From Acidobacteriaceae bacterium (GTDB lineage: Bacteria > Acidobacteriota > Terriglobia > Terriglobales > Acidobacteriaceae), in NCBI GenBank assembly GCA_025355385.1, contig JANXZS010000250.1, positions 1-35,439 of the forward strand: a stretch of 35,439 nt of DNA. The letters are read 5' to 3'. Shown piece after piece: positions 5,991 through 29,123 of the stretch. The notes under the pieces are model-generated. The model was given only the letters and a program-made list of their open reading frames with translations. It was not told where the DNA came from and did no database searches. Positions within the stretch are counted from its first letter, which is position 1. Each line of letters starts with the position of its first letter. A program made the translations under genes and the position numbers.

Positions 5991-6106
5991 TAGAGCAATT
6001 CACTTTTGCGCCACTTAGCGGTGAGGCAGCTACGGGTGGAGTTCTTCAACGGAACAGCCTCGTCGTCCTCGATTTCCAACTCTACACCGAAACTAAAATT
6101 GCTCTA
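5991..6106 (-). repeat. candidate third member of the TAGAGCA-ended repeat family, at the mraY stop codon
   Basis: The arms TAGAGCAATT (5991-6000) and AATTGCTCTA (6097-6106) form a perfect 10-bp inverted repeat bounding 116 bp between mraY and murD. The outer seven bases (TAGAGCA...TGCTCTA) and the length match the 115-bp repeats at 24862 and 26181, but the interior does not. In mraY sense the element starts with the TAG that ends mraY. Against a clean mobile element, a partly paired stem (CACCGCTAAG/CTAAGCGGTG) crosses its distal boundary. The segment could instead be an intercistronic RNA structure. Confidence 0.4.
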
Positions 6107-22464: not shown

Positions 22465-24864
22465 ATGTCTTTAGACCCCTTGGTGATGCAGCGAGAAGAA
22501 GCCGAAAGGCTGAGAGCCCTGCTGCAATATGAAACCCTCGACACTCTTCCCGACCCGGCGCTCGATGACATCGCGCGTCTGGCGGCGGAGATATGCCGTG
22601 GGCCATATGCCTTCGTGGGTTTCATTGACGCCAGCCGCGTCTGGTTCAAGGCGCGCTACGGCTTCGAGGAGCGCGAGCGTGCTCGAGTTTCTTCGGCGTG
22701 CCAGTACACGCTGCACGATCCCAGGCCGCTGCTGATCGCGGACGCGCGCGAGGACATGCGTTTCGCCCCGGTCGGCATCTTTCTTGCACCACATATCAAC
22801 TGCCGTTCTTACGTCGGAGCCCCGCTGATATCGCACTCGGGCCACGTGATCGGCACGCTCGCCGTTTTGTCGCCGGAGCCCGACGCCTTTACTGCACAGC
22901 AGGGGGCGATGCTGCAGATCCTGGCGGCACAGGTTGTCACGCGCATTGAGTTTTACGCGCGGGTGCGCATGCAGGAGCGGGGAGTGCGTGCACGCCAGCG
23001 CATTGAGCGGGCGCTGACGGTAGAACGCAATTTCGTCTCCGCTGTGCTCGACACCATCAGCGCTCTGGTGCTGGTGCTCGATACCGCCGGACGCATTGTG
23101 CGCTTCAACCGCGCTTGCGAAAACATATCGGGCTACACCTTCGGCGAACTGGTTGGACGCTCCTTTCCCGAAGAGCTGTTCATGGCCCAGGAACGCACCT
23201 ATGCCATGCAGATGATCGACGAGGCCCGCGCAGGTAAGCTGGTGGGGAACTATGAGATTCACTGGTTGCCGCGCGTTGGGCGCAAGCGCCGCATTGCGTG
23301 GACCGCCACTCCGCTTACAGATGCCAACGGCGAGGTGAACTTCATCATCACCACCGGAGTAGATGTTACCGAGCAGCGCGAAGCCGAGATGGCGCTGCGC
23401 GCGAGCGAGACGCGCTATCGGCAACTGGTGGAAGGCAGCCTGGCCATGGTGTGTACCCATGATTTAGAGGGGCGCATCCTGTCCATCAATCCCCATGCGG
23501 CACAGGGCCTGGACTACTCCGTTGACGAGCTTGTGGGCAAGTTAATGACGGACCTGATTCCGGAAAACCATCTAGCCGATTTCGAGCGGTATCTCACCGC
23601 CGTCCAAAGCAACAAGGAGGATAAGGGTCTGCTATACCTCCGCCGCAAGCATGGTGGCGTCTGCGTAATGGCGTACAGCAACAAGTTGATCCAATTGCCG
23701 GACGCCGAGTCTTTCGTCCTGGGGCACGGCATTGACATCACGGAGAAGACGGACGCGGAAGAAGAACTGCATACGTTGATGCGGCAGCGCGAGTCCATCC
23801 TCAAGTCGGTTGGCGACGGCATCTGCGGCATGGATATGGATGGCAGGTTGACCTTCCTGAATCCCGGCGCCGCGCAGATGCTGGGCTATGAGGCGGATGA
23901 GATTCTGGGCGCAAACATGCACAAGCTGGTGCACCACTCGCACCCCGACGGCAGCCCCTACTACGCGGAAGATTGTCCTATCGACGCCAGCCTGCACCGC
24001 CATACGCCCATCCGTGTGCTCGACGAGGTGTACTGGCGCAAGGACGGTACCAGTTTCCCGGTGGAGTATGTAGCCTGCCCCCTGGTTGATAATGGCCGCA
24101 CTACCGGTATCGTGGTCGCGTTCCAGGACGTGACCGAACGCCGCCGCCTGGAGCGCATGAAGGACGAATTCATCTCCACCGTCAGCCACGAACTGCGTAC
24201 GCCGCTCACGTCGTTGCGTGCCGCGCTGGGACTGCTCGCCGGTGGAGTGCTTAACGAGCGTCCCGAGAAGATTGCACAGATGCTGAATCTCGCCGTTGGC
24301 AACTGTGACCGACTGGGGCGGCTGGTAAACGACATTCTCGATTTTGAGCGTATCGGCAGCGGCCGATCGAACCTGATTTGCTCGGTGCACCAGGCCAGGG
24401 AACTGCTGCATCGGGCTTCCGAAGAAATGCAGGCTAGTGCGGCCAAGGCCGGCGTACGGCTTCGGATCGAGTCCGATCCGGTCGAGGTGTGGGCGGACGG
24501 CGACCGCATCCTGCAGACGCTTACCAACCTGATTGGGAATTCCATCAAGTTCTCCACGCCCAGCAGTGAGATTCGGCTGCGTGCCCACCTGAACGCCAGC
24601 GAAATGGTGCAGATCGAGGTGCATGACGAGGGCTGTGGCATTCCCGCCGACAAGCTCGACATCATCTTCGAGCGCTTCCAGCAGGGAGATGCCTCTGATT
24701 CGCGCGCCATGGGCGGAACTGGCCTGGGACTGGCCATCTGCCGCAGCATCGTCAAAGAGCACGGTGGTGACATCTGGGCGGAAAGCGTCGCGGGCAAGGG
24801 CAGTTCCTTCTATCTCACGCTGCCAATGCCCATGACAGCGCGCAACACTTCGGCAGTGGACTAG
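22465..24864 (+). CDS. soluble GAF-PAS-PAS-PAS sensor histidine kinase
   Basis: A 799-residue histidine kinase without membrane segments, so it should sense a cytoplasmic signal. The order is: GAF domain (about 20-170, with LYVGAP-like SYVGAPLISHSGHVIGTLAV), PAS1 (about 185-305), PAS2 (about 315-430), PAS3 (about 440-560). The dimerisation/phosphoacceptor domain follows, with STVSHELRTPL and the likely phosphorylated His at residue 575. The ATPase domain (about 670-795) has the N box NLIGNSIKFS, the G1 box DEGCGIPADK, the F box FERFQQGD and the G2 box GGTGLGLAICRSIV. No response regulator gene is adjacent, so it is an orphan kinase here. Its TAG stop is the left end of the repeat copy at 24862. 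Confidence 0.93.
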   Translation: MSLDPLVMQREEAERLRALLQYETLDTLPDPALDDIARLAAEICRGPYAFVGFIDASRVWFKARYGFEERERARVSSACQYTLHDPRPLLIADAREDMRFAPVGIFLAPHINCRSYVGAPLISHSGHVIGTLAVLSPEPDAFTAQQGAMLQILAAQVVTRIEFYARVRMQERGVRARQRIERALTVERNFVSAVLDTISALVLVLDTAGRIVRFNRACENISGYTFGELVGRSFPEELFMAQERTYAMQMIDEARAGKLVGNYEIHWLPRVGRKRRIAWTATPLTDANGEVNFIITTGVDVTEQREAEMALRASETRYRQLVEGSLAMVCTHDLEGRILSINPHAAQGLDYSVDELVGKLMTDLIPENHLADFERYLTAVQSNKEDKGLLYLRRKHGGVCVMAYSNKLIQLPDAESFVLGHGIDITEKTDAEEELHTLMRQRESILKSVGDGICGMDMDGRLTFLNPGAAQMLGYEADEILGANMHKLVHHSHPDGSPYYAEDCPIDASLHRHTPIRVLDEVYWRKDGTSFPVEYVACPLVDNGRTTGIVVAFQDVTERRRLERMKDEFISTVSHELRTPLTSLRAALGLLAGGVLNERPEKIAQMLNLAVGNCDRLGRLVNDILDFERIGSGRSNLICSVHQARELLHRASEEMQASAAKAGVRLRIESDPVEVWADGDRILQTLTNLIGNSIKFSTPSSEIRLRAHLNASEMVQIEVHDEGCGIPADKLDIIFERFQQGDASDSRAMGGTGLGLAICRSIVKEHGGDIWAESVAGKGSSFYLTLPMPMTARNTSAVD

Positions 24865-24976
24865 AGCAGAAGCAGGGATAGAGTGATGTATCCAGCGTCA
24901 GCGATATAGGCATTTTCTTGATGAAAATGCCTGCAGAGATCTGTGGCTCACCTTACATAACCCTGCTTCTGGTCTA
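24862..24976 (+). repeat. 115-bp MITE-like repeat, copy A
   Basis: Bounded by TA on both sides, with terminal arms GAGCAGAAGCAGGG (24864-24877) and CCCTGCTTCTGGTC (24961-24974), which pair with one mismatch. Inside is a perfect 10-bp hairpin, AGGCATTTTC/GAAAATGCCT with loop TTGAT (24908-24932). It differs from copy B (26181) at about nine positions by eye, and a 48-bp core around the hairpin is identical. The first three bases are the TAG stop of the histidine kinase. No open frame is inside. The 184 bp from here to the dehydrogenase gene are T-rich and show no gene. Confidence 0.85.
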
Positions 24977-25160
24977 GGCTTTCCTCGTTTTTTCCAGAGT
25001 CCTCCTTGGTCTTTTTTCTAATAAAAACGTCCAGTAATTTTTGGAACGCTACAGCGGCGGCTGGAATCTTATGGAGTGGCAGCCCGCCGGTTTCGATCCA
25101 CCTGAGTCATCCAGGTGGCAGCATTCCGGTCGCGCCATATCCCATGTATCAGGAGAAGTG

Positions 25161-26183
25161 ATGTCCAAAAAAACCTATCGTGCTGTCCAGGTGGCCGAGG
25201 CGAATGGTCCGTTGCAACTAGTGGAGCGCGATATTCCCGAGCCGGGCGCTGGTCAGGTGCGGGTGCGCGTGCATGCCTGCGGCCTATGTCATAGCGACTC
25301 CTTCACCGTGATGGGCCTTTTCCCGGGAGTCCAGTTCCCCCGCGTACCGGGGCACGAGATTGCCGGCGTGGTTGATGCCATCGGCGACGGGGTGGCGGAG
25401 TGGAAGCCCGGTCAGCGCGTCGGTGTGGGCTGGTTCAGTGGAGGCTGCGGGCATTGCGAATCCTGCCGCCGCGGAGACTTTATCACCTGCCCGAATAAGC
25501 CGGTACCCGGGATCCACATCGATGGTGGCTACGCCGAGTTTGTGATCGTTCCGGCTGCCGCGCTGGCGCTCATCCCCGAGGATCTCTCTGACGTGGAAGC
25601 GGGACCGCTGATGTGCGCCGGCATTACGACGTACAACGCGCTGCGCAACAGTGGTGCGCGCGCCGGAGACCTGGTCGCCATCCATGGGATCGGTGGCCTC
25701 GGGCACCTTGGCGTACAGTTCGCCGCGAAGATGGGCTTTCGCACCGTAGCCATCGCTCGTGGACAGGATAAGGCAGCACTCGCCAGGCAGCTTGGCGCCC
25801 ACATCTACATCGACACCACGACCCAGGACGCGGCCGCGGAACTGACAAAGCTGGGGGGAGCCAAGGTGATTCTGGCTACCGTGACGAGTGGCAAGGCAAT
25901 TTCGTCCGTGATCCCGGGGCTCGCCATTAACGGCAAGTTGATTATCGTCGGCGCGTCCATGGAGCCGGTCGAGGTGAACACCATGGAAATCATCGGGAAA
26001 CGCACTTCCGTGGGAGGCTGGCCATCGGGCACATCGAAAGATAGTGAAGACGCGATGAACTTCAGCGTGCTGACCGGGATTCGTCCGATGATCGAAGAGT
26101 ATCCCCTGGAAAAGGCAGCAGAAGCCTACGAGCGCATGATGAGCGGTAACGCGCGCTTCCGGGTGGTATTGCGGGTGAGTTAG
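25161..26183 (+). CDS. zinc-dependent alcohol dehydrogenase (MDR family)
   Basis: A 340-residue medium-chain dehydrogenase that should interconvert an alcohol and aldehyde with NAD(P). I start it at the ATG at 25161, preceded by AGGAGAAG; the frame from 25041 has a non-homologous extension. Catalytic zinc ligands appear as Cys40 (ACGLCHSDS), His65 with Glu66 (VPGHEIAG) and a later Cys in LMCAGITTY. Four cysteines for the structural zinc lie in GCGHCESCRRGDFITCP. The Rossmann motif is GIGGLGHLGVQFA. The substrate is unknown. The gene is the only one between two direct copies of a 115-bp repeat, and its TAG stop is the first three bases of the downstream copy. Confidence 0.94.
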   Translation: MSKKTYRAVQVAEANGPLQLVERDIPEPGAGQVRVRVHACGLCHSDSFTVMGLFPGVQFPRVPGHEIAGVVDAIGDGVAEWKPGQRVGVGWFSGGCGHCESCRRGDFITCPNKPVPGIHIDGGYAEFVIVPAAALALIPEDLSDVEAGPLMCAGITTYNALRNSGARAGDLVAIHGIGGLGHLGVQFAAKMGFRTVAIARGQDKAALARQLGAHIYIDTTTQDAAAELTKLGGAKVILATVTSGKAISSVIPGLAINGKLIIVGASMEPVEVNTMEIIGKRTSVGGWPSGTSKDSEDAMNFSVLTGIRPMIEEYPLEKAAEAYERMMSGNARFRVVLRVS

Positions 26184-26295
26184 AGCAGAAGCAGGAACAG
26201 TGTGATGTATCCAGCGCCAGCGATGTAGGCATTTTCTTGATGAAAATGCCTGCAGAGATCTGTGGCTCACCTTCAGTAACCCTGCTTCTGCTCTA
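26181..26295 (+). repeat. 115-bp MITE-like repeat, copy B
   Basis: Same length and orientation as copy A. The arms GAGCAGAAGCAGG (26183-26195) and CCTGCTTCTGCTC (26281-26293) pair perfectly, with TA outside on each side. The hairpin AGGCATTTTC/GAAAATGCCT lies at 26227-26251. The first three bases are the TAG stop of the alcohol dehydrogenase gene. After it come 153 bp of non-coding sequence before msrA. Confidence 0.85.
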
Positions 26296-26448
26296 GAGGT
26301 CGGTCGTCAGACATTTCCGGCGAGGAAGAGAGCGCCTGATTGGTGACAACCGAAATCGGGATACTGACAACGGGCGGTAACCTTTTGCCGTCGCAGCGCT
26401 CTAATAAAGGACGGCTGGTAATACGACAATGCCGTCGGAGGCCAGCTT

Positions 26449-27135
26449 ATGTCCATCTTCCCCGCTCGCATCTTCGCCGCCCTCTCTGCGCTTGCTCTTG
26501 GCGTGGGTCTGCTTGCCTGCAACTCCGCCAAAGCGGCGCACACCGGCCCTCTTCCAGATCCTGTCGTCGATGCGGCAAAGTCGCCTGCGCCACAAACCGC
26601 AGTCTTTGCCGGGGGTTGTTTCTGGGGGGTCCAGGCTGTGTTCGAACACGTCAAGGGAGTCAGCGCTGTCCAGGCGGGCTACTCCGGCGGAGAACGCGAC
26701 ACTGCCGAATATGACGTGGTGAGCAGTGGGACCACTGGCCATGCCGAGTCGGTCAGCGTGACCTATGATCCCGCGCAGATAAGCTATGGCCAGTTGCTCA
26801 AAGTGTTCTTCTCGGTGGCTCACGATCCCACGGAGTTGAATCGACAGGGGCCGGACGAAGGCACGCAGTATCGCTCCGTTATCTTCTTCGCCAACGACGA
26901 GCAGAAGCGCATTGCCGACGCCTATATCGCGCAACTCAATAAGGCGGGAGTCTTTTCCCACCCCATCGTCACCCAGTTGGTCGCGCTGAAAGGCTTTTAT
27001 CCCGCCGAGGCCTACCATCAGGATTACGCAACGCACCACCCTGACAATCCCTACATCTACATCAACGATCTACCCAAGGTAGCCGCGCTCGAGAAGCAGT
27101 ATCCCGTGCTTTATACTGCATACAAGGGACGCTGA
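26449..27135 (+). CDS. msrA: peptide-methionine (S)-S-oxide reductase MsrA, predicted lipoprotein
   Basis: MsrA reduces methionine S-sulfoxide in proteins. The catalytic motif GCFWG is present with the active Cys at residue 57. It is followed by VQAGYSGG, GTTGHAESVSVTYDP and EGTQYRSVIFF, all typical. Unlike cytoplasmic MsrA, this 228-residue form has an N-terminal export signal ending in the lipobox LLAC (Cys24), so it is probably membrane-anchored on the periplasmic side and repairs envelope proteins. The C-terminal part holds YHQDYATHHPDNPYI, with a resolving cysteine not obvious. GGAGG lies seven bases before the ATG. It converges with acs, only 23 bp away. Confidence 0.95.
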   Translation: MSIFPARIFAALSALALGVGLLACNSAKAAHTGPLPDPVVDAAKSPAPQTAVFAGGCFWGVQAVFEHVKGVSAVQAGYSGGERDTAEYDVVSSGTTGHAESVSVTYDPAQISYGQLLKVFFSVAHDPTELNRQGPDEGTQYRSVIFFANDEQKRIADAYIAQLNKAGVFSHPIVTQLVALKGFYPAEAYHQDYATHHPDNPYIYINDLPKVAALEKQYPVLYTAYKGR

Positions 27136-27158
27136 AAAGAGTCAGCAGGAGAGAGCGG

Positions 27159-29123
27159 TCAACCTTCCTCGGCTTCGCGCAGTTTGGCAATGATGGTGAA
27201 ATCCTCAAGCGTGGTGGTGTCGCCCTTGATCTCGCCATATGTAGCCAGTTCGCGCAGCAGGCGTCTCATGATCTTGCCGCTGCGTGTTTTGGGCAGTGCA
27301 TCGGTAAAGCGCAGGTCGTCGGGACGAGCGAGTGATCCAATCTCCTTTGAAACCCATTTGCGCAGCTCTTCTTTGAGCTCGTCCGACGGCTGGTTGCCGG
27401 ACTCGAGCGTGACGAAGGCCGAGATGGCCTGGCCCTTCAACTCGTCGGGGCGGCCAACTACGGCGGCTTCAGCCACCTTGGGATGGGCCACCAGGGCGGA
27501 CTCCACTTCCATTGTGCCGAGGCGATGCCCGGAGACATTGATCACGTCGTCGACGCGCCCCATCAGCCAGTAGTAGCCGTCTTCGTCGCGGCGCGCGCCA
27601 TCGCCGGTAAAGTAGGAGCCGGGTATGTCGCTCCAGTAAGCTTGCACGTAGCGGTCAGGATCGTTGTAGATCGTGCGGGCCATCGCCGGCCATGGTTTGC
27701 GGATCACCAGCAAGCCGCCACTGCCCGCCGGCACCGGGTCCCCTTCTTTTGTAACAACCTCTGGCACAATTCCAGGAAAAGGCCGGGTAGCCGACCCGGG
27801 CTTGGTGGGTACTGCTCCGGGAATCGGACACAGCATCATCGCGCCGGTCTCCGTCTGCCACCACGTATCTACGATCGGACACAGTTCCTTGCCGATCTTC
27901 TCGCGATACCACATCCACGCTTCAGGATTGATAGGCTCGCCCACAGTACCCAGCAGGCGCAGACTGTCGAGTTTGTATTTTTGCAGATGTTGATTGCCCC
28001 ACTTGATGAAGGCGCGAATGGCCGTCGGAGCGGTGTAAAAGATCGTCACTTTATGCTCGTCGATAATCTTCCAAAAGCGGTCGGGCGCAGGGAAATTCGG
28101 CGCACCCTCATACATCACGGTGGTAACGCCATTCTGCAGGATGCCGTAGACCACATAGGAGTGACCCGTAACCCATCCAATGTCCGCTGTACACCAGTAG
28201 ACATCGTCTTCCTTGAGGTCGAAGACAAGCTTGCTGGTGATGTAGGTCTGCACTGCGTAGCCGCCTGTGGTGTGCACCAGGCCCTTGGGCTTTCCTGTCG
28301 TTCCGGAGGTGTACAGGATGTACAGCGGATCCTCCGAGTCCATCGATTCCGCGGGACACTCTGGCGATGCTGCCTCCATGAGCTCGTGCCACCAGAGATC
28401 GCGGCCCGGATGCATGTCAACCGGCGTACCGGAGCGCTTGTACACCACCACGTGTTTCACGGATGGGGTGTTGGCAACGGCCTCATCCGCCACCTGCTTG
28501 AGCTTGACCTGAGCGCCGCGACGGTAAGAAGTGTCCTGCGTGAGGAGGGCGACACACTGGGCGTCGTTGATGCGATCCACCAGCGCGTTCGCGGCGAAGC
28601 CACCGAAGATGACTGAATGGACTGCGCCGATGCGCGCGCAGGCCAGTAGCGCAATAGCCAGTTCCGGAGCCATTCCCATGTAGATGGCAACGCGATCGCC
28701 CTTGCGGATGCCGAGGCCCTTCAGGACATTGGCAAATTTCTGCACTTCTACGTGCAGCTCGCCAAACGTGATTCTGCGAACCTCACCCGGCTCCCCCTCC
28801 CAGAGGATGGCGACCTTATCTTTGCGGCCGCCGAGAACGTGGCGGTCGACGCAGTTGTAGCAGAGATTCAGTTTGCCACCGACAAACCACTTCGCCCAGG
28901 GCAGGTTCCACTCAAGCACGCTGGTCCACGGCTCAAACCAGTGCAGCTCCTTGGCAACGCTGGCCCAGTACGTCTCGGGATCGGCAATGGACCGCTGGTA
29001 TAGCTCCTCATACTCCGCCAGGCTTTTGATGTGGGCCTGCCGGGCAAACTCCTCGGGCACGGGAAAAACGCGGTTCTCCCGCAGGGTGGATTCCAGATTC
29101 ACATTGGTTGTCGAAAACGCCAT
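27159..29123 (-). CDS. acs: acetyl-CoA synthetase
   Basis: Acs activates acetate to acetyl-CoA with ATP through an acetyl-AMP intermediate. The ATG at 29123 has GGAGAGCGG directly upstream and gives 654 residues ([13 protein letters not shown]), the usual length. A start at 29192 adds an unrelated stretch. Family motifs are all visible: [19 protein letters not shown] (AMP-binding), [43 protein letters not shown], and [11 protein letters not shown] near the end. The lysine in that last motif is the residue regulated by acetylation in Acs enzymes. An MFS carboxylate-type transporter gene lies upstream on the same strand and could supply substrate. Confidence 0.97.

Follow-up and report, generated by a model that had tools for sequence, protein, structure and literature searches.

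MITE-like palindromic elements at stop codons and between convergent genes in an Acidobacteriaceae genome

The window analysed here (35,439 nucleotides; positions 1–35,439 of contig JANXZS010000250.1, assembly GCA_025355385.1, from an Acidobacteriaceae bacterium) carries two 115 bp palindromic repeats, copies A and B, on either side of a gene for a zinc-type alcohol dehydrogenase (adh). The best reading of these repeats is that they belong to a real, patchily distributed superfamily resembling miniature inverted-repeat transposable elements (MITEs), that is, small non-coding palindromic elements mobilized in trans by a transposase whose target is the TA of YTAR and whose insertions duplicate that TA; we give this reading a probability of about three in four. 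What was observed directly is the copy number, the terminal repeats, the TA boundaries, the absence from a genome of the same genus, the near star-like divergence and the location; the enzyme responsible would be of the DDE type (IS5-like or IS630/Tc1-like). Two points are new: the habit of sitting on stop codons and a covarying central hairpin.

The repeat family and its insertion site

Searches of the 4.63 Mb draft genome of the same organism (321 contigs) with copy B and with end and core patterns placed the element at at least 87 distinct positions among the matches listed, many with sharp TA boundaries; it occurs far beyond the 3′ regions of the two window genes, to which it might have been restricted. 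One place at a contig end was left out of the 86 extracted, and exclusion of two truncated copies (L083 and L085) gave the 84 copies counted below. The consensus is 116 bp including both TAs, corresponding to a net insertion of 114 bp, and 69 of the 84 copies have exactly this length. Between 2 and 13 bases (mean 7.15) separate an individual copy from the consensus, and pairwise distances approximate the sum of the two distances to the consensus (mean ratio 0.935). This near star-like pattern is what a burst from a small number of sources would leave once the copies had decayed independently, some variants being shared. As in MITEs, the element is short, is present in many copies, codes for no transposase and combines inverted ends of 15–16 bp with a short target duplication.

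Of the 84 copies, 70 retain the TA at each end; among these, 69 have C or T as the outer left base and 68 have G or A as the outer right base. The insertion site is thus TA within YTAR, with CTAG reconstructed in 48 of the 84. Copies with an outer T retain the internal C in 17 of 18 cases, which argues for a 2 bp TA duplication and does not support one of 4 bp. The consensus element starts with G and ends with C; since the TA is duplicated and the element begins with G, TAG is rebuilt in a TAR stop whichever way the element is inserted. Insertion at the TA of a TAG or TAA stop would therefore leave TAG in frame and the protein unchanged, as follows from the sequence. IS630 elements reportedly prefer TA within CTAG. 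Among described systems, cited here and below from excerpts of the accounts, ISY100 of the IS630-Tc1-mariner group likewise duplicates a TA target (PMC2170065). MITEPsy1 of Pseudomonas syringae (100 nt, 18 nt ends, listed as 'IS5?') inserts at CTAG or YTAA but differs in its 4 nt duplication, against the 2 bp TA of the present family, and in its six copies (PMC3189936).

The one genome of the same genus that was compared (G001) contains no element in a whole-genome DNA search, and stretches covering about 46% of it (1.78 Mb) matched neither the consensus nor the covariance model of the superfamily described below. A first search of 60 other relatives gave no match at E ≤ 0.001. At L072, the corresponding G001 site is a near-precise empty site that reads into the same TAG-ended gene without the element; the other seven aligned junctions are element-free, with intergenic DNA too drifted for the junction to be placed. 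Filled and empty sites were thus seen between species, not between strains. Together with the copy number and the TA boundaries, these results bear out the suggestion of an earlier, sequence-only note that the repeats form a MITE-like non-autonomous family.

The two window copies lie on the same strand and are 92% identical over 116 bp, forming the longest direct repeat in the window (repeat search, minimum length 25). Their plus strands fold far more stably than shuffled sequences (z of −5.3 and −6.7), with a strong fold on both strands. Each starts at the TAG stop of the preceding gene, a histidine kinase gene for copy A and adh for copy B. The features are as follows.

24862–24976, + strand: element copy A, 115 bp, one base shorter than the 116 bp consensus; TA at both ends; reconstructed site CTAG
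24862–24877, + strand: left terminal inverted repeat of copy A
24961–24976, + strand: right terminal inverted repeat of copy A, with one mismatch
24909–24931, + strand: central hairpin of copy A, GGCATTTTCTTGATGAAAATGCC, in part common to related families
26181–26295, + strand: element copy B, 115 bp; TA at both ends; reconstructed site TTAG
26181–26195, + strand: left terminal inverted repeat of copy B
26281–26295, + strand: right terminal inverted repeat of copy B
26228–26250, + strand: central hairpin of copy B
24862–24864, + strand: TAG stop codon of the histidine kinase gene, coinciding with the left end of copy A; the G001 match ends one codon later
26181–26183, + strand: TAG stop codon of adh, coinciding with the left end of copy B; the G001 match ends three codons later
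25161–26183, + strand: adh (Pfam ADH_N, ADH_zinc_N), a neighbour and not cargo
22465–24864, + strand: GAF/PAS sensor histidine kinase gene, a neighbour

The direct 115 bp repeats, their inverted ends and internal hairpin, the identical 48-base run and adh as the sole gene between the copies had all been described in the earlier note and were recovered here; the run reads TAGGC...CACCTT. Its statement that no transposase lies in the window also stands: searches with four transposase families gave no match in the window contig. A scan of the window against Rfam gave no match at the gathering threshold, and an Rfam scan of eight loci at E ≤ 5 gave nothing on the elements.

Location relative to genes

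Genes were called with a simple ad hoc codon-usage gene finder trained on this genome, and the background was 424 kb chosen from long contigs, not at random. By these calls, 39 of the 84 copies coincide exactly with a stop codon (35 TAG and four TAA in the reconstructed sites); 22 are between convergent genes off the stop, 14 in tandem intergenic regions, two in divergent regions, six in coding sequence and one is unclassified. For the 73 copies with both a canonical YTAR and a class, random insertion weighted by the motif predicts 5.6 at stops, where 39 are seen, and 45 in coding sequence, where five are seen. Position between convergent genes is likewise enriched (57 of 82 copies against 51 of 320 background pairs; Fisher P = 2.6 × 10⁻²⁰). 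The association does not depend on the gene finder, as an open frame of at least 200 codons ends at 34 of 70 element sites, compared with 36 of 364 background CTAG sites.

Most of the stops at copies look native. Of 45 frames ending there, 22 were matched in the compared 46% of G001; three matches with less than 45% identity were set aside, and the remaining 19 (at least 62% identity) end at the same codon in 12 cases, within three codons in six and five codons away in one. Both window genes are among the six (one and three codons). Orientation with respect to the stop gene is nearly even (21 against 17, with one further copy on two stops). We suggest that copies would survive at stops and between convergent genes because they interrupt no reading frame and no promoter there, and that insertions elsewhere would mostly be lost; a preference of the transposase for such places may also contribute. 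The family offers a countable case of a selfish element that persists at high copy number with little harm by landing on stop codons and rebuilding them. It also cautions annotators that a hairpin at the end of a gene in these genomes may be a parasite instead of a terminator.

Palindromic elements of the Rickettsia type are defined by frequent in-frame insertion in coding genes. Copies within coding sequence are few here (the six of 84 by the ad hoc gene finder). One of them, L090:926–1041 on contig C312, lies in frame within a tyrosine recombinase gene (L090:130–1182), to which it adds 38 residues just before the LGHTSIKTTERSY segment.

The 3′-end habit itself is already known from other systems. 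In Streptococcus pneumoniae, RUP, BOX, SPRITE and insertion sequences are all overrepresented between convergent genes (PMC3049150). RUP (107 bp, with ends like those of IS630-Spn1) is similar in size to the present element and, with 110 copies in one genome, a tight fold, paired ends and an excess between convergent genes, resembles it in habit (PMC3049150); the two were compared by description, and RUP differs in that no related transposase was found for the present elements. BOX is likewise overrepresented between convergent genes (P = 0.0017), and 36 of the 58 genes that overlap a BOX element do so at their extreme 3′ end, where BOX encodes the stop codon, with no strong evidence that the overlapped genes are truncated (PMC3049150). 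BOX is modular, whereas the present family has one length in 69 of 84 copies and rebuilds the stop at the insertion point. REP, GTAG and TIRYT repeats are palindromic as well and lie mostly downstream of genes (PMC3733652) and often between convergent genes (PMC1525189); the present elements differ in being 116 bp long with TA-flanked ends, and the TIRYT repeats were compared by description. The strength of the 3′-end habit, the precision at stop codons and a common centre with unrelated ends were not found in searches of open-licence papers.

Related elements with a common central hairpin

In a wider search, the consensus was compared with 398 genomes from this bacterial family, no more than two candidates being scored in each. 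Elements of the same layout were found in at least six of the 397 other genomes, overturning the picture of a species-only family given by the 60 relatives. Matches at E ≤ 1 number 32 in one genome (G532), ten in another (G623) and one, one, three and four in the other four, the weakest being partly chance. The better loci carry elements of 114–118 bp that keep this layout and have TAGAGC-like ends; their terminal repeats are different, for example TAGAGCATTTTCAGGAAT in G532 and TAGAGCGGTTCCACAATT in G623. What they have in common is the centre, near TTTTCTTGATGAAAA, which is near-constant and lies inside stems that differ between families yet remain paired.

This pairing was assessed on two sets of 15 representatives. 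In the first, which includes three close copies from G532 and two from G623, both sides have changed in 21 of 31 pairs, and covariation is 0.505, against 0.183 for shuffled and at most 0.171 for slid partners. In the second, which has fewer close copies, both sides have changed in ten of the 13 pairs of the inner hairpin, and covariation is 0.478 (0.184 after shuffling, no more than 0.114 for slid partners). Because similarity to the element or its layout was how the representatives were found, the shared ends and loop were partly selected for; the paired changes were not. A covariance model (R1) built from the first set found four places outside the training set in 442 kb of this genome, with scores from 32 to 63 bits:

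L094:19797, new model place
L094:17545, new model place
L112:17765, new model place
L104:17566, new model place

It found one further place beside a copy (L071:234, 38 bits) and none in either the 1.78 Mb of G001 or 97 other loci totalling 647 kb. A weak match in the window (5991–6106, 17.6 bits, E = 0.51) was taken as chance.

The superfamily is best described as elements of about 113–118 bp in several genera that have in common a central hairpin with a near-constant loop. From reading of the sequences, this genome alone appears to hold at least three element types. A second type (L094:8662–8779, L094:19797–19913 and L104:17566–17683; left end ...TCATTTTCCCTGTTGCTGTG) has the same length and a similar centre, and its copy at L094:8662–8779 is on a stop codon. 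At L057, L060, L078 and L083, short solo fragments resembling TAGAGCAATTCCACTTC immediately adjoin copies; these may be remnants of a further type.

The context of related elements was examined for nine of the 32 matches in G532, of which four are on stops and eight between convergent genes, and for six of the ten in G623, of which two are on stops; among five other related elements one is on a stop and two are between convergent genes. Two genomes clearly show the convergent habit; G623 does not. Elsewhere, the exact terminal 15-mer occurs in seven of 398 other genomes of the class, at one place each; no opposite end faces it within three mismatches, and these matches are therefore attributed to chance. 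The core 23-mer and one variant gave no match in viral contigs, plasmids gave none to the consensus or to one G532 member, and 80 adh-like loci of named genomes contained no element.

A common centre with different ends departs from the usual view that a transposase is matched to the ends alone; for RUP, a centre common to families with different ends is not described in the excerpted account (PMC3049150). The centre also provides a specific sequence to test for binding. As a tentative extension, for which we would give odds well short of even, the hairpin and its near-constant loop may define a mobile class of their own: an enzyme or host factor would read the hairpin, as an extruded cruciform or in single-stranded form, leaving the ends free to diversify, and the TA/G ends would make the elements silent stop-codon passengers across the bacterial family.

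Mobilizing enzyme, host function and the adh gene

An autonomous partner is usual for MITEs but not always found, and was not treated as defining. The earlier note had proposed a search for a transposase gene with ends matching the repeats, and none emerged from the matches to four transposase families in the 321-contig draft. For an IS630/Tc1-mariner partner, the genome offers two DDE_3 places, both partial and without matching ends. IS5-type candidates at contigs C61 and C47 occupy CTAG sites but have other ends. The former (NF033580; L091, approximately 935–1823) starts with TAGAGC, the remainder of the end being different; its inner ends are GCCTGTTATGAAGTT and its transposase is split into two frames. 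The latter (L375:9–1316) has ends GTCCGACACGTTTGA, CTAG on both sides and an open frame of 398 codons.

A serious rival reading, although we consider it unlikely, is that the repeats are hairpins mobilized by a RAYT/TIRYT-type tyrosine transposase (HUH, Y1). Such enzymes recognize single-stranded hairpins, which would account for families that have the central hairpin in common but differ in their terminal repeats, and a hairpin with a near-constant loop is indeed present in the 15 representatives. TIR-associated tyrosine transposases (TIRYTs) have repeat families in some species, and one sharply defined TIRYT group comes from Acidobacteria (PMC3733652). The symmetric Y-TA-G...C-TA-R boundaries, however, fit a TA duplication, and the HUH...Y..NP motif is absent from 720 kb of partly overlapping loci, at most 16% of this genome.

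Several results weigh against a MITE-like family moved by a TA-duplicating transposase. The genome matches to DDE_3, DUF4096, DDE_Tnp_1 and DDE_Tnp_4 have other ends, no recognizable matching ends or are partial. In G623 only one of the six examined elements is between convergent genes. Location does not vary significantly with divergence (P = 0.08 and 0.10, the former for copies at 3′ ends against the others), so that insertion preference and purifying selection are not separated. The folds of the copies are better than those from simulated random decay (−53.5 against −50.1 kcal/mol, P = 1.3 × 10⁻⁵). The core stem also changes least: in 40 copies from the whole-element search its rate, counting all differences, is 0.025, compared with 0.046 overall and 0.064 in the right arm. 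These 40 were checked separately because other copies were found partly through core and end patterns, which biases region-wise rates; as the core stem is least changed among them too, search bias alone is an insufficient explanation. The low rate could reflect successive source copies with shared variants, or selection on structure.

Another reading is that the element is a functional 3′ signal, such as a bidirectional terminator or an mRNA-stabilizing hairpin, maintained at gene ends by selection. The fold on both strands, the 57 of 82 copies between convergent genes, the low core-stem rate, the folds exceeding simulated decay and the stems that change on both sides across families would all suit such a role. 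Within the major family, however, double compensating changes show no excess (eight, where shuffling gives 6.6 on average). Rare alleles occur at similar rates in the ends, the core stem and the arms (0.020 to 0.025 per site over all 84 copies), with 0.017 in the five-base loop. The two window copies, to which the scan was limited, have no terminator-like T-run pattern, orientation to the gene is about even, and G001 lacks the element both in the whole-genome DNA search and in the model scan of 46% of it. There is little sign of host function within the family, and a signal of this kind is improbable. Given the near-even orientation and compensating changes no more frequent than chance, we infer that the hairpin is needed for mobilization and is not a host RNA signal.

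The remaining proposal, that the two copies and the adh gene between them make up a composite of about 1.3 kb that can be excised or amplified, is suggested by direct copies on both sides of one gene and is largely refuted. The earlier note had looked to relatives with empty sites or without adh; the first expectation was realized in one near-precise case (L072 against G001), the second was not, because G001 retains kinase and adh in the same order with neither element, the adh protein being 84% identical. The DNA between kinase and adh aligns poorly to G001, and the stretch carrying copy B and msrA (window 26184–27162) has no aligned counterpart there, leaving the empty site of copy B unreadable; alignment resumes at window position 27163. 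Copies A and B occupy separate TA sites, and neighbouring pairs no more than 1450 bp apart are as frequent in the genome as chance predicts (two seen, 2.3 expected at random). With the kinase–adh order free of elements in G001 and the pair spacing at chance level, the composite cassette was rejected and adh is taken to be a bystander.

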